A stretch of DNA of 50,570 nucleotides from a virus, in the IMG/VR virus record IMGVR_UViG_3300031857_018492, positions 1 to 50,570 of that record; one strand, written 5' to 3'. Under the pieces are notes generated by a model. It was given only the letters and a program-made list of their open reading frames with translations, had not been told where the DNA came from and ran no database searches. Every line of letters begins with the position of its first letter. The first letter of the stretch is position 1. Below are positions 13,534 through 19,060 of this stretch, in pieces. The translations under genes were made by a program, and so were the position numbers.

Positions 13534-14571
13534 ATGACGAAACGTATAGGTTTCTGCTGTCAATGGTATCATACTGATCAGACTCTCAGCAAGAAACAAC
13601 TGGAAGAAATTCAAAGACCCTTTAATACCAAAGCTACTACAGTGCGTTGGCTGAATGAGCATCGTGATCAAGCAGAAGAGAAATTAGATTCAGTGGTGAG
13701 ACACAACATAGAATCACTGAAAAAACTTGTGTCACATGTAGGATCACTGCCACCCGAAAGACGAATGGTACGATTAGGATCTCCTGTGCTGCCAATGGCC
13801 ACAGAAGCGACATGGCGATACTATATAGATTCACAGGATATTGTACGGTATTGTGAAAAGCATTTTGCTGAAGTGGGCGAGTTAGCTCGTCGACTAGATG
13901 TTAAAGTATCTTTCCATCCAGGACAATTCACAGTGTTGGCTTCAGAATCTGAAGATATAGTACGCAGAAGTATTGATGAGTTTGAATATCATGTTAATAT
14001 GGCACGCTGGATGGGTTTTGGTCGTAAGTTTCAAGATGGTTGTAAAATTAATGTACACATATCCGGTCGTCAAGGTACAGAAGGTATTATTAAAGCTCTG
14101 CCTAGATTATCACCCGAAGCACGCAATCTTATCACCATAGAAAATGATGAAATGGGCTGGGGTTTGGATGCCACACTTAAATTAGAGAAGCATGTGGCAC
14201 TGGTATTAGACATACATCATCATCTGATCAGAGACGAAGAATACATACAAGCAAATGATGATAGAGTCAAACGAGTGATTGATTCATGGCGTGGCACACG
14301 TCCTACTCTGCATTATTCTTATTTCCGTGATGAAGAATTGTTGCCCGCTTACCGAGATCATCCTGAAAAGATGCACAGTGGTTTGCATAATATCAAGGAC
14401 TTATTATTATTAGGTTGTAAGAAACAGAAATTAAGATCTCATTCAGATCTATTACCTAATAGAACTGCTAATGCTTGGGCATTGACTTTCTTGGATAATT
14501 TTGATATTCAAGTCGAAGCTAAATGGAAGAATCTAGCTGCTCAACAGCTCTACGAGCAATCACTGAGCTAG
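13534..14571 (+). CDS. uvsE: UV-damage endonuclease (UvdE/UvsE family)
   Basis: A 345-residue TIM-barrel UV endonuclease, which nicks DNA 5' of UV photoproducts and other lesions. Features are the N-terminal RIGFCCQW, RLGSPVLP, the metal-site segment VSFHPGQFTV, NVHISGRQG, TIENDEMGW and LDIHHHL. The length is normal for the family. Expression should be from a leaderless transcript. UV-repair enzymes are common in surface-water phages. It is followed 7 bases later by the promoter of the Fe-S/halogenase operon. Confidence 0.9.
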   Translation: MTKRIGFCCQWYHTDQTLSKKQLEEIQRPFNTKATTVRWLNEHRDQAEEKLDSVVRHNIESLKKLVSHVGSLPPERRMVRLGSPVLPMATEATWRYYIDSQDIVRYCEKHFAEVGELARRLDVKVSFHPGQFTVLASESEDIVRRSIDEFEYHVNMARWMGFGRKFQDGCKINVHISGRQGTEGIIKALPRLSPEARNLITIENDEMGWGLDATLKLEKHVALVLDIHHHLIRDEEYIQANDDRVKRVIDSWRGTRPTLHYSYFRDEELLPAYRDHPEKMHSGLHNIKDLLLLGCKKQKLRSHSDLLPNRTANAWALTFLDNFDIQVEAKWKNLAAQQLYEQSLS

Positions 14572-14578
14572 CAATAGG

Positions 14579-14607
14579 TTGAATACCAACCATTAATCGT
14601 TTATAAT
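14579..14607 (+). promoter_or_regulatory. Sigma70 promoter of the Fe-S/halogenase operon, leaderless
   Basis: TTGAAT (14579-14584), 17 bases, perfect TATAAT (14602-14607), six bases, ATG at 14614. It is the only clear promoter ahead of the chain that runs to 18734. Confidence 0.72.
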
Positions 14608-14613
14608 TGAATA

Positions 14614-14910
14614 ATGCCAAAGAAAAAACGACGCAAGAAATCTGGTTATTTGCAGAAGTTTCGTCATAATATAGATCTTAATAATTTTGGAGTGGATGGA
14701 GATCTCATAGAATGGTGCAAAAGACACAGTGTGGGTTCATGGGGTTGGTGGTTCTGGACACACCCAGACTGGCACAATCTTGCCTATGATACCTACGATG
14801 AGCGGTCTTATGGTAAGAATCGTGCTTACATGAGTTTTCAATATAAAAAAGACGCAATGCGTTTTTGGTTTTGGTGGCAGAGGATGGGAGATCATGCGAA
14901 TAAAAAATAA
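14614..14910 (+). CDS. Unknown Trp-rich basic protein
   Basis: A 98-residue protein with a very basic head (MPKKKRRKKS) and a strikingly Trp/aromatic-rich body (GSWGWWFWTHPDWH and RFWFWWQRMGDH). No membrane-helix pattern. It opens the operon leading into SufE and overlaps it by 17 bases. Similar small Trp-rich proteins occur in marine T4-type phages, as I recall, but no function is known to me. Confidence 0.65.
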   Translation: MPKKKRRKKSGYLQKFRHNIDLNNFGVDGDLIEWCKRHSVGSWGWWFWTHPDWHNLAYDTYDERSYGKNRAYMSFQYKKDAMRFWFWWQRMGDHANKK

Positions 14911-15298
14911 AATACAACAATGGAGTGAAACATTGTCTCAGTTGTCAAGCATGGATCGATTAGAATATCTCATAGATCTTGGCAGAAAATTAGAACCACT
15001 GGATGAAAAATATCAGTTGGAGAGCTTTAAAATACGCGGCTGTGCCAGCAATCTATGGTTAGTGCCTATCTTTGAAAAAGAGGTGTTAAAATTGCGAGCA
15101 GGAGCAGATGCTTTCATAACTCGAGGCACTGCCTATATTATATTGGATATATTGAATGAACAAAAGTATAAGAATATACAAAAAATTAAGATAGAAGATT
15201 TTGCATCATTAAATATTTCATCTATTCTGACTCCTCAAAGACAGAATGGTTTGGGCAGTCTTATATTAACAATAAAGAATTACGCCAACGGAAGATGA
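14894..15298 (+). CDS. sufE: SufE-type sulfur acceptor
   Basis: A 134-residue SufE-family protein, which takes persulfide sulfur from a cysteine desulfurase (SufS) and hands it to the Fe-S scaffold. The acceptor Cys lies in IRGCASNLWL, matching the family G-C-x-S loop; DLGRKLEPL and an RGTAYIIL segment also fit. No desulfurase is encoded nearby, so it would draw on host SufS. Its stop overlaps the radical SAM start (ATGA). Confidence 0.85.
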   Translation: MRIKNKIQQWSETLSQLSSMDRLEYLIDLGRKLEPLDEKYQLESFKIRGCASNLWLVPIFEKEVLKLRAGADAFITRGTAYIILDILNEQKYKNIQKIKIEDFASLNISSILTPQRQNGLGSLILTIKNYANGR

Positions 15299-16380
15299 AA
15301 CTATTATACGAATCACATTCACTGTGTCCTGTTTGCTATCGACATCTACCCAGTCAAATTGTGGTTGAGGATAATGTGAGATACATTGTGAAAGAATGCA
15401 CCGAGCATGGACCATTTCGAGTGATACAGGATCCTGATGCTGAATTCTGTGAGCGATTAGAGCAACGAACCAACCAACTATACAATAAAATATTGATGGT
15501 AGAAACTACCAATAGATGTCAGTTGGACTGTCCTCACTGTTATCATATACCCAATAACAGAGATAGAGATATTGATCTTGCTTACATTTATAATGATATA
15601 AGAACAGCACCACGTGAATTAGAAAATATTGTGTTAGCAGGAGCCGAACCCACTGTGAGGAAAGATCTATTTGATATCATAGATTGTGTGCATCATGATG
15701 GTAGAAAAACCATGATATTAACCAATGGTGTGAGACTGGGTGAAAGAAAGTTTGTAGAGAACTTGATATTATACAGGGTAGATCAGGTTTTGATAGGATT
15801 GAATCACTGGAGTTATCAAGGTAGAGATACTCATGAGAGACAATTAGAAGGCATAAAAAACTGTATCGATATGGGATTGAGATTTCACTATATTGGATAC
15901 ACTGTGGAAAGTTATGAACATCTACGAGATGTACTGGAAGAGATTAACAGTTTTCCTTATTACAATAAAAAAGGCAAACGATATCAATTCCGCATACGAT
16001 TGGGTAGTAACATAGGACGAGTACCCAATGAACCCACAGCATATATCAGCAAGAATTACAAAGAGATAGAGAAGATAGCAAAATCATTGGGTCATGAATT
16101 GATCAGTGCTCACAACGAAGGGGATGATAATATGTATCATATGATGGCCTATATGAATGGACACAAATTAAGAATCATACAGTGGCCAGATGTTACCAAC
16201 ATAGATCTGCATCAGTTGAAACACTCGCCATGGGCTAAGTTTAATAGACAGGATTATCTCACAAACTTTGTGCATCAAGTGATCACTCGTGATGCTTATG
16301 TGAACAAACGATTACCTGTGCTGGATCGAGTACCCGAAGCCTACACCTACAGCGAAAAAAATGATGGAGATATAGCATGA
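15295..16380 (+). CDS. Radical SAM enzyme with N-terminal Cys-rich domain
   Basis: A 361-residue enzyme. Residues about 10-45 form a Cys-rich motif (CPVCYRHLP, then ECTEHGPF) as in MJ0619/Tes-like radical SAM proteins that act as methylases or C-C coupling enzymes. The [4Fe-4S] triad is in NRCQLDCPHCY (C-x3-C-x2-C). AGAEPTVRKDLFDII is the SAM-binding GGE-like region (GAE here), followed by ILTNGV. The substrate is unknown. It is coupled by ATGA to SufE upstream and the halogenase downstream. Confidence 0.85.
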   Translation: MKLLYESHSLCPVCYRHLPSQIVVEDNVRYIVKECTEHGPFRVIQDPDAEFCERLEQRTNQLYNKILMVETTNRCQLDCPHCYHIPNNRDRDIDLAYIYNDIRTAPRELENIVLAGAEPTVRKDLFDIIDCVHHDGRKTMILTNGVRLGERKFVENLILYRVDQVLIGLNHWSYQGRDTHERQLEGIKNCIDMGLRFHYIGYTVESYEHLRDVLEEINSFPYYNKKGKRYQFRIRLGSNIGRVPNEPTAYISKNYKEIEKIAKSLGHELISAHNEGDDNMYHMMAYMNGHKLRIIQWPDVTNIDLHQLKHSPWAKFNRQDYLTNFVHQVITRDAYVNKRLPVLDRVPEAYTYSEKNDGDIA

Positions 16381-17846
16381 GAATAATAATAGTGGGTGGT
16401 GGCACAGCAGGATGGATGACTGCAGCCTATCTAGCCAAATATAAAATATCCAATGATATTACTGTGATAGAACCTGCAGATATACCCAGAATTGGTGTGG
16501 GCGAGAGTGTTACTCCACATGTAGCAAGATTTTTTGAAGAAATAGGTATTCCCACTGAAGATTGGATGGCCAAAACAGGTGCTGTGTACAAGTATGCAAA
16601 TAAGTTTGTGAACTGGGTAAACAACAAAGGTGAATACGAATACTTTAGTTTTAATTACACTGTGCCAGAAATAAATTTTTTAAAAGATATCACTCAAAAC
16701 ATATCCTATGAAAATTTCTCTGATACCACAGATATACGCAGTATCGATCACATGGCATGGCATTGTAAAAATGGATTTGATAGATTTGATCGTTATTTTA
16801 ATCCACAATTTTATTATATGGAAAAAAATACACTGCCATTCTATAAAGGTGAACATCTATTGAATCAACCCTACAGTGTTAGCCAACACATCAACGCAGA
16901 GATGGCAGCAGAATATATTAGAGATGAAATTGCTGTTCCGCTAGGAGTTAAAAGAATAATAGATCAAGTGACAGAAGTTGTGCATAAAGACAGTACTATT
17001 ACGGAATTAAAAACAAAAAATAACAGTGTACAGGGAGATTTTTTTATCGATTGTTCTGGTTTTCGTAGAGTGCTTGTGAATAAATTAGGATGGAAAATTA
17101 AAGAATACTCACAGCATCTTATCGACAGTGCAGTGGTCGCACAGAGTGATTATGAAGACAAGCAGAAAGAATTGGTTTGTTATACTCAGAGCATAGCAGA
17201 ACCCTATGGCTGGAGATTCAACATAGGACTACAACATAGAATGGGCAATGGCTATTGTTATTCATCTCAACATCTAGATGATGAATCCGCTATAGAATAT
17301 TTTAAAAAACAAGTGAGTAATTTAAAAACCGAACCAAGAATAATTCGTTGGAAACCATCTAGATTAGAAACATTCGCTGAAGGCAATGTAGCAGCAGTGG
17401 GATTGAGTTGTGGCTTTATTGAACCACTGGAAGCCAATGCTCTATACATAATTGTTAATAGTATTAGAAGATTATCCCGAGTATTAATGAAAGGACAATT
17501 AAATTTTACATCTTATAATAAAGAAATGAGCTACACCATTGATGATATTGCTGATTTTATTCTTGTGCATTATACCATGAGCAATAGAACAGACACAAAA
17601 TTTTGGCAAGATATAAAACAGAATCACACACAATTAATCAATGATAAAATTAATAATCCTTTGAATACTATGAAAAATTCTATCAGTGGATATTCTATGT
17701 TTCCAGATTATATGTGGTTACAATTAGCAATATCATGGGGTATTGATGTTAAATTAAAAACAGTTGATGAGATATTTTTAGATCTATCTAAAAAATATTA
17801 TGAATACCATGAGAATAAACACAGAACTATAGCAAATATAATATGA
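16377..17846 (+). CDS. Flavin-dependent tryptophan-halogenase homologue
   Basis: A 489-residue protein of the PrnA/RebH superfamily. Landmarks are the FAD loop GGGTAGW (7-13), GVGESVTPHV, VYKYANKF with a lysine at the position of the catalytic Lys, DCSGFRR, a degenerate form of the W-x-W-x-I-P region (PYGWRFNIG), GYCYSSQHLDD and GFIEPLEANALY. Loss of the second Trp leaves halogenation unproven. Homologues occur in cyanomyophages with unknown role. Coupled by ATGA on both sides. A flavin reductase partner may be the nitroreductase-like protein at 27722 or a host enzyme (guess). Confidence 0.85.
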   Translation: MRIIIVGGGTAGWMTAAYLAKYKISNDITVIEPADIPRIGVGESVTPHVARFFEEIGIPTEDWMAKTGAVYKYANKFVNWVNNKGEYEYFSFNYTVPEINFLKDITQNISYENFSDTTDIRSIDHMAWHCKNGFDRFDRYFNPQFYYMEKNTLPFYKGEHLLNQPYSVSQHINAEMAAEYIRDEIAVPLGVKRIIDQVTEVVHKDSTITELKTKNNSVQGDFFIDCSGFRRVLVNKLGWKIKEYSQHLIDSAVVAQSDYEDKQKELVCYTQSIAEPYGWRFNIGLQHRMGNGYCYSSQHLDDESAIEYFKKQVSNLKTEPRIIRWKPSRLETFAEGNVAAVGLSCGFIEPLEANALYIIVNSIRRLSRVLMKGQLNFTSYNKEMSYTIDDIADFILVHYTMSNRTDTKFWQDIKQNHTQLINDKINNPLNTMKNSISGYSMFPDYMWLQLAISWGIDVKLKTVDEIFLDLSKKYYEYHENKHRTIANII

Positions 17847-18412
17847 TGAGTTGGATAGATTATAAACAGTATCGTCACCCAGAATTATTGGAACAGTTAA
17901 GAGATACAGGATTATCAGAATATAATCCAATGTTAGATCTTTACAAAGTTGCAGAATCTATCAAAGAAAGATACCGTCAGTTACCATGGCCTCCTCAAGT
18001 GGACTGGCACTGTCATGCTCTAATAATGGGAGGAAAAATTAACAAAGATTACGAACCTTATTGGCCCAAGAGCACACAATTTGCTGTTACTATTCCTGGT
18101 TTAAAAAGTCTCAATGTAAATTATGTGGCTGCCCACAGTATTATACCAGATCACTGTGATGACATTAAACCGTTAAAACAGCAGGAAAGTTGGAGAGAAG
18201 AGTTAGGCATAGTGACCATTATTGGCATAGACATGCCCAGTGATAATGTAGAGCTAGTGGGATTCCATGTAAATAATATTAAGAAATCATGGGCTACTGG
18301 GGACATAGTTTCTATGGACGGTAGTCAATTACATGGTGGATGGAATAGATCTGATAAGATGCGAGTGACATTTTATCTAGCAATAGACAAGGAATATTAT
18401 GCAATGGTTTGA
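17843..18412 (+). CDS. 2OG-Fe(II) oxygenase, Asp/Asn hydroxylase-like
   Basis: A 189-residue cupin-fold oxygenase. The iron ligands H-x-D are in IIPDHCDDIKP and the distal His in SQLHGGWNRSDKMRVTF, where the Arg would bind 2-oxoglutarate. The pattern matches the aspartyl/asparaginyl beta-hydroxylase group. The start overlaps the halogenase stop (ATGATG; either ATG at 17843 or 17846). It follows the halogenase and precedes the A-type carrier, so the three probably act on one substrate. Confidence 0.78.
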   Translation: MMSWIDYKQYRHPELLEQLRDTGLSEYNPMLDLYKVAESIKERYRQLPWPPQVDWHCHALIMGGKINKDYEPYWPKSTQFAVTIPGLKSLNVNYVAAHSIIPDHCDDIKPLKQQESWREELGIVTIIGIDMPSDNVELVGFHVNNIKKSWATGDIVSMDGSQLHGGWNRSDKMRVTFYLAIDKEYYAMV

Positions 18413-18734
18413 ACTAACAGAATCAGCGAAGAAACAGATGAGCAATTTGCTGTCTCGAAATCCTGGCAAATATGCTGTGAGTTTAGGTGTGCGAGGCGGA
18501 GGTTGTGCAGGATTCAAATACGATTGGGGATTTGTAGATTCTGCAGAACAGATACAGAAAGATGATGTAGTGGAATCTTGGGAAGATGGTCGTTTTGTAG
18601 TGGATTCTACCAGCATGCTCTACGTGGCAGGCACACGTATCGATTGGCGAGAAGAAGTGTTTGGGTCGCAATTTGAGATATCCAATCCCAATGCTTCAGG
18701 TGGTTGTGGTTGTGGTGAGAGTTTCTCTGTTTAA
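18399..18734 (+). CDS. A-type iron-sulfur carrier (IscA/SufA/HesB)
   Basis: A 111-residue protein of the HesB family, which carries clusters to target enzymes. The three cysteines are in GGGCAGFKY and GGCGCGESF, the standard arrangement. Viral HesB genes are a hallmark of cyanomyophages and pelagiphages. It overlaps the oxygenase gene by 14 bases and closes the SufE-to-IscA operon. Its stop overlaps the stop of the convergent zinc-ribbon gene. Confidence 0.9.
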   Translation: MQWFELTESAKKQMSNLLSRNPGKYAVSLGVRGGGCAGFKYDWGFVDSAEQIQKDDVVESWEDGRFVVDSTSMLYVAGTRIDWREEVFGSQFEISNPNASGGCGCGESFSV

Positions 18735-19018
18735 GTACTGCCTATAGGTCTATCACTGCTAGCATCGGTACGGTAGATTCGACGCATTTTAACACCCACT
18801 TTTTGAGCAAATCTTTTGGAATCACAGAAACTGCACACGTGTTTATAATCATTGGTAGCTCGATCCTGATCCACTCGGCTTTTAGGACGGAAAAAAGTAG
18901 TGCCGCAGCAGTCGCACTTGAATACATATAGAGTGTTTTTTCTTTTGAAGGTATGATATACACCCAGTTTGCTCTGGCGTTCGTACAGTCGGAGTGTTTT
19001 CAGTGTTTCTATGAACAT
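18731..19018 (-). CDS. Zinc-ribbon protein, minus strand
   Basis: A 95-residue protein read leftwards, starting at MFIETLK behind a GAGG ribosome site. Two Cys pairs (CDCC and CSFC) about 30 residues apart form a probable zinc site, with basic residues between them. Such small zinc ribbons are common in T4-type marine phages and may bind nucleic acid. The ends of this gene and the A-type carrier overlap within TTAA. It is one of only two minus-strand genes in the window; a frame open to 19057 gives a less likely start. Confidence 0.72.
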   Translation of the reverse strand: MFIETLKTLRLYERQSKLGVYHTFKRKNTLYVFKCDCCGTTFFRPKSRVDQDRATNDYKHVCSFCDSKRFAQKVGVKMRRIYRTDASSDRPIGST

Positions 19019-19037
19019 GATATCCTCGGAAATATTT

Positions 19038-19045
19038 AATAAATA
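19038..19045 (+). promoter_or_regulatory. Late promoter box for tail-fibre cluster
   Basis: AATAAATA 15 bases before the ATG at 19061, between the divergent zinc-ribbon gene and the fibre cluster. Confidence 0.5.
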
Positions 19046-19060
19046 CATGCGGATCATTAT

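Follow-up and report, generated by a model that had tools for sequence, protein, structure and literature searches.

A phage operon that pairs an apparently virus-restricted radical-SAM enzyme with a halogenase homologue and Fe-S helpers looks like one of many related gene islands

The operon described here looks like one of many related phage gene islands that are seemingly built to make or decorate a molecule in infection, and it forms one tightly packed transcription unit behind a conserved promoter. It lies in a virus record of 50,570 nt (the window, that is, the whole stretch of DNA that was analysed; coordinates are positions within it), which appears consistent with a T4-like phage and in which the clamp loader and the ATP-dependent protease match PHROGs. 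A first-pass annotation had read the gene order as SufE, radical SAM, halogenase, 2OG oxygenase and HesB, and all five are present in the list of open reading frames and were assigned by Pfam with scores above the gathering scores; the overlaps that it described (ATGA, 4 bases, at each of the first three junctions, and a longer one of 14 bases between the 2OG and HesB genes) were confirmed. Position 14579, which it gave as the start of the gene interval, is instead the first base of the promoter; the first gene begins at 14614, and the operon opens one gene before SufE, with an open reading frame of 98 amino acids. The features are:

14579-14607, + strand: sigma-70-like promoter, TTGAAT-N17-TATAAT (promoter scan plus conservation)
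14614-14910, + strand: 98-aa basic, Trp-rich protein, first gene of the operon (open reading frame; conserved beside SufE)
14894-15298, + strand: SufE-like sulphur acceptor (PF02657, 9e-29)
15295-16380, + strand: radical-SAM enzyme, seemingly virus-restricted, with a rubredoxin-type N-terminal metal site (PF04055, 3e-18; PF23545, Zn_ribbon_HMPTM, 2e-12)
16377-17846, + strand: flavin-dependent halogenase homologue, FDH (PF04820, Trp_halogenase, 3e-95)
17843-18412, + strand: AspH-fold Fe(II)/2OG oxygenase (PF05118, Asp_Arg_Hydrox, 4e-8)
18399-18734, + strand: A-type Fe-S carrier of the HesB/IscA/ErpA type (PF01521, Fe-S_biosyn, 3e-15)

The promoter scan by itself performed no better than shuffles, and the promoter is called because it is conserved in relatives: 29-33 of 37 bases are identical in six of them (L002-L006 and L012), and it precedes the operon even where an extra gene has been inserted. 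A SPASM-type radical-SAM gene lies between the promoter and the 98-aa gene in L003-L005, this gap being a second position in the operon at which a cassette can sit. The 98-aa gene overlaps SufE by 17 bases, and its product is 75-90% identical in six relatives, adjoining SufE in each (dN/dS 0.09), with no match in Pfam, PHROG, NCBIfam or isolate phages. Its Trp content prompted us to consider it as a dedicated substrate of the halogenase, which was rejected given that the protein is equally conserved where the FDH is absent. In a check for a RiPP precursor, the operon left no room for another gene and the 98-aa protein was the sole candidate, although such a substrate could lie elsewhere.

Purifying selection acts on the operon genes (NG86 dN/dS of 0.035-0.16 where dS was measurable) and the catalytic residues of the enzymes are kept. 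The operon contains no gene for a flavin reductase, for transport or for resistance, an Rfam search gave no match, and a DNA-level search for the operon in phage records returned none. Just upstream lies a UvdE-type UV endonuclease gene (13534-14571) that is kept in the window's lineage, and facing the end of the operon on the minus strand (18731-19057) is a gene for a 108-aa zinc-finger-like protein with CxxC pairs, which is 88-96% identical in relatives and has no family match in Pfam, PHROG or NCBIfam.

The radical-SAM enzyme stands outside any named family. It carries an N-terminal CX2C-X20-CX2H site (C11, C14, C35 and H38) and the radical-SAM cluster motif CX3CX2C (C75, C79 and C82); across 60 diverse family members, the cysteines of the rubredoxin-type site are found in all 60 and H38 in at least 90%, and only six cysteines are invariant (three in the rubredoxin-type site and three in the radical-SAM cluster). 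As all six are thereby used, both auxiliary [4Fe-4S] clusters of GDGT-MAS are absent. The model of the enzyme (pLDDT 91.7) has GDGT-MAS as its best PDB fold match (TM 0.72; next best about 0.5), and the likeness to GDGT-MAS/Tes (PDB 7TOL) extends to the rubredoxin CX2C-X20-CX2H spacing, the radical-SAM core and the fold; however, the window enzyme has neither the N- nor the C-terminal auxiliary [4Fe-4S] cluster and is about 130 residues shorter. Membership of Tes was ruled out by these missing clusters, and the protein falls below the NCBIfam cut-offs for both Tes (69 versus 450 bits) and TrsS (83 versus 490 bits). The many invariant polar residues of the family (R233, R242, H282, D299, Q328 and R332) weakly hint at a polar substrate.

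When viral contigs were scanned with a profile, this family was confirmed in at least 192 viral stretches, and it has so far been seen only in viruses, to which it would appear to be restricted. Pattern scans that need short conserved motifs were run twice on 84,980 cellular genomes and yielded no full-length relative, and the single confirmed cellular match was to the generic core (25% identity over 105 residues). The window protein had no match in isolated phage records, a distant family member used as the query gave short core matches only in isolated phages, and predicted viral structures contained no full-length match.

The genes on either side would fit an Fe-S supply that flanks the radical-SAM enzyme, as we infer. 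SufE scores 100 bits for PF02657 (threshold 27), with its sulphur-accepting cysteine within GCASNLW, and lies below the NCBIfam equivalog cut-off (59 versus 160); HesB scores 98 bits for TIGR00049 (cut-off 58.8) and has three cysteines in GGCAG and GGCGCG. SufE is 62-85% identical in L002-L006 and L012, and HesB 75-93% identical in relatives. Among the loci examined, SufE is limited to the window's lineage and HesB is present in this lineage plus L027 and L028. In L027 (4660-9813; also in L028), the same radical-SAM family lies among nrdA-like, IscU-like, two HesB and nrdB-like genes, a context that provides a second link of the family to Fe-S assembly.

Comparison with close relatives shows what is kept and what is exchanged. 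L002, L003, L005, L006 and L012 retain the flanks of the window together with the 98-aa gene, SufE, the radical-SAM gene and HesB, and carry between the last two, on the minus strand, genes for an amidinotransferase, an aminotransferase of class III and, by the calls of the gene map, two or three 2OG enzymes; L004 has a halogenase and an aminotransferase in this position. DNA similarity between the window and L002 ends at 16374 and restarts at 18393, abrupt borders that point to a clean cassette exchange. In L007, which has different flanks, the radical-SAM, FDH and 2OG genes are contiguous (73, 61 and 72% identity, respectively), which argues that the arrangement is beyond chance, and the truncated L013 has the three in the same order as L007. 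The first-pass annotation had grouped the five genes in one operon, but they do not form a constant set: the exact combination was found in the window only among the loci examined, the FDH and 2OG genes being swapped in sister phages and SufE and HesB being lineage-limited. Scattered genes with independent gain and loss, which it held to speak against a shared pathway, were thus encountered in half: FDH and 2OG are exchanged, yet the link between the radical-SAM gene and FDH persists.

This link reaches far beyond the phage of the window. In stretches of up to about 21 kb, with crude gene calls and family profiles built from radical-SAM loci, 15 of the 18 dereplicated loci that were found by the halogenase alone (using the FDH alignment as the query) hold the radical-SAM gene, 11 an amidinotransferase and 12 an aminotransferase. 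Loci found by the amidinotransferase alone include the radical-SAM gene in 9 of 30 cases and the aminotransferase in 25. The window FDH is present in 6 of 54 dereplicated radical-SAM loci, within the stretches examined, so most copies of the radical-SAM enzyme work without it; the radical-SAM gene is the wider element and the halogenase a frequent attachment. Viral scans with single FDH and 2OG sequences gave zero or one locus, as exact 8-residue patterns were too strict.

Additional genes, among them radical-SAM, 2OG and QueC-like ones, are present in many islands. L182 (1-19661, on a 265-kb contig) is a large island with a halogenase, an amidinotransferase, an aminotransferase and four OG1-type genes, as well as KedN5-type B12 radical-SAM, SAM-decarboxylase-like and nitroreductase-like genes. 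The amidinotransferase of the sister-phage cassette has HsvA (PDB 5WPI) as its best profile match in the PDB, a likeness that belongs to the sister phages, as the window has no amidinotransferase; together with the class III aminotransferase and the SAM-decarboxylase-like and KedN5-type genes of L182, it tilts the picture towards small-molecule chemistry. Many marine phage contigs (L100-L131; for example, L112:8362-11074) carry an aminotransferase-2OG (OG64)-amidinotransferase trio that has no radical-SAM gene of the window's family within the stretches examined and no close match in isolated phages, and that forms a core of its own. In an isolated phage (L175; Synechococcus phage S-SCSM2R, PQ898602), an amidinotransferase gene lies beside KdsA/KdsB and 2OG genes, which makes a glycan context possible for this amidinotransferase type.

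For the two oxidative enzymes, the residues expected of catalysts are in place. In the FDH, the flavin motif GGGTAGW (GGGTAG at residue 7), K72 and E349 are invariant within its clade, their equivalence to the catalytic residues of Thal being read off the alignment, and WRFNIG at 279 stands in place of WxWxIP, a motif that is also missing from some active halogenases, as summarized in a review. Halogenation by this enzyme is likely but not certain. Its tree places it in a separate (starred) clade of 20 rows, apart from isolate-phage halogenases, the rows of which carry a long-branch warning. One environmental contig (L030:3214-6109) and one isolate (Syn10; L199:4473-7578) each carry a tandem pair of different halogenase genes that overlap. 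The 2OG enzyme conserves the iron ligands H104, D106 and H164 and the 2OG-binding R174, and its model (pLDDT 90.9) best matches AspH in the PDB (TM 0.69), followed by proline hydroxylases; it shares the fold and PF05118 with the AspH catalytic domain (PDB 5APA), but lacks the TPR domain and has an HxD...H triad.

Taken together, we tentatively read the operon as encoding, in compact form, a phage tailoring pathway of modular design, a reading to which we give slightly less than an even chance. In such a pathway, SufE would receive sulphur from a host cysteine desulphurase, and the radical-SAM enzyme would rely on HesB for help in assembling or repairing its oxygen-labile [4Fe-4S] cluster. This enzyme would generate a 5'-deoxyadenosyl radical and alter an unactivated C-H position on a small, polar substrate, perhaps derived from an amino acid, a peptide or an amine. 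The host would provide reduced flavin for the halogenase, which together with the 2OG oxygenase would then modify the same scaffold, whereas in sister phages an aminotransferase, an amidinotransferase and other 2OG enzymes might act at the same step to give variant products; the product would have its effect while infection proceeds, with the host or competitors as the target. The tailoring logic proposed in the annotation is borne out in its linkage, modularity and single transcription unit, but not in an invariant five-gene set. In favour of the pathway are the overlapping genes behind one conserved promoter, the retention of the core with a swapped middle in L002-L006 and L012, the contiguous genes of L007, the partners found at the 18 FDH loci, the kept catalytic residues under purifying selection, and the IscU-like and two HesB genes beside the radical-SAM family in L027. 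Against it count the presence of FDH in just 6 of 54 radical-SAM loci, the confinement of the five-gene set to the window, the lack of flavin reductase, transport and resistance genes, the replacement of WxWxIP by WRFNIG, and the coexistence in one cell of an oxygen-labile radical-SAM enzyme with the oxygen-requiring chemistry of FDH and the 2OG enzyme, although this last tension may be the reason for carrying the Fe-S helpers.

An unlikely but serious alternative is that the enzymes modify virion or host proteins (for example, tail fibres), with radical-SAM chemistry, AspH-type hydroxylation and aromatic halogenation all taking place on polypeptide residues and module swaps altering receptor binding or escape. 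Fibre-like genes lie directly 3' of the operon and near the radical-SAM gene in 19 of 54 dereplicated loci, but phage cargo genes commonly sit there, which makes this position a weak argument; similarly, the 2OG fold is nearest to AspH, a protein hydroxylase, yet AspH-fold enzymes include free amino-acid hydroxylases too. The operon has no core biosynthetic gene and several islands hold genes for SPASM radical-SAM enzymes, the targets of which are often peptides, whereas the amidinotransferase and class III aminotransferase partners suggest free amines.

We consider it just as improbable that the genes are unlinked metabolic cargo, each with its own role, gathered by recombination in a hypervariable slot, with SufE and HesB serving not the radical-SAM enzyme but ribonucleotide reductase or the Fe-S metabolism of the host. 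The clean cassette exchange, the failure of HesB and SufE to track FDH, and the location of HesB in L027, flanked by nrdA- and nrdB-like genes, would all be expected of such cargo, as would the separate occurrence of halogenase, HesB/NifU and 2OG genes in cyanophages, which agrees with what the annotation had said of individual halogenase and HesB genes there. It accounts poorly for an FDH clade that keeps company with the radical-SAM gene in 15 of 18 loci across gene orders and phage backgrounds, for the translational overlaps behind one promoter, and for the contiguous radical-SAM, FDH and 2OG genes of L007. Hypermodification of phage DNA or RNA bases is the least likely of these rivals and in our view highly improbable: phages are known to use 2OG, PLP and radical-SAM enzymes in DNA hypermodification, and a QueC-like PP-loop protein is encoded in several islands, but no gene scanned in the operon or the swapped cassette matches a DNA-modifying family, and we know of no described base-modification pathway that includes a halogenase.

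Returning to the modular tailoring pathway, a broader version, which we regard as conceivable but somewhat doubtful, is a modular phage secondary metabolism in which interchangeable modules (halogenase, hydroxylase, aminotransferase and amidinotransferase) are arranged around the virus-only radical-SAM enzyme as one hub and yield infection-stage natural products, the operon being its minimal version. That this family is found together with Fe-S helpers and with tailoring enzymes that can be exchanged suggests that certain tailed phages produce or decorate molecules outside every described pathway. With a halogenase and an oxygenase in one operon, alongside the radical-SAM enzyme that accompanies this halogenase clade, the system offers a concrete way into the question of which substrates are used by the halogenases and 2OG oxygenases so abundant in phages.

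Phage halogenases, 2OG genes, HesB genes and the exchangeable module of phages CP220/CPt10 are already known. As far as our searches reach, three elements appear new: a radical-SAM family that bears a rubredoxin-type site and is restricted to viruses, the near-constant association of this family with a single halogenase clade, and an Fe-S-helper operon with an exchangeable middle; consistent with the suggestion that the pathway may be undescribed, our literature search gave no paper that combines phage radical-SAM, halogenase and amidinotransferase genes. VirX1-type cyanophage halogenases and that of HTVC008M have Pfam Trp_halogenase, the flavin motif and the lysine in common with the window FDH, and phage tryptophan-halogenase-like genes (for example, in HTVC008M) often adjoin 2OG/PhyH genes, as the window FDH does; however, the window FDH is about 30% identical to these halogenases and belongs to a different clade, and isolate phage records have no copy of the window radical-SAM gene. 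Among published systems, the closest precedent is a radical-SAM/amidinotransferase cluster of the Campylobacter phages CP220 and CPt10, which is interchangeable and set in an otherwise conserved genome (PMC2853527). An exchangeable radical-SAM cluster is shared with the lineage of the window, but the CP220/CPt10 radical-SAM proteins match the SPASM-type clusters of our set rather than the window's family, and no halogenase, SufE or HesB is noted there, whereas the amidinotransferase of the CP220-type module is missing from the window and carried by its sister phages.
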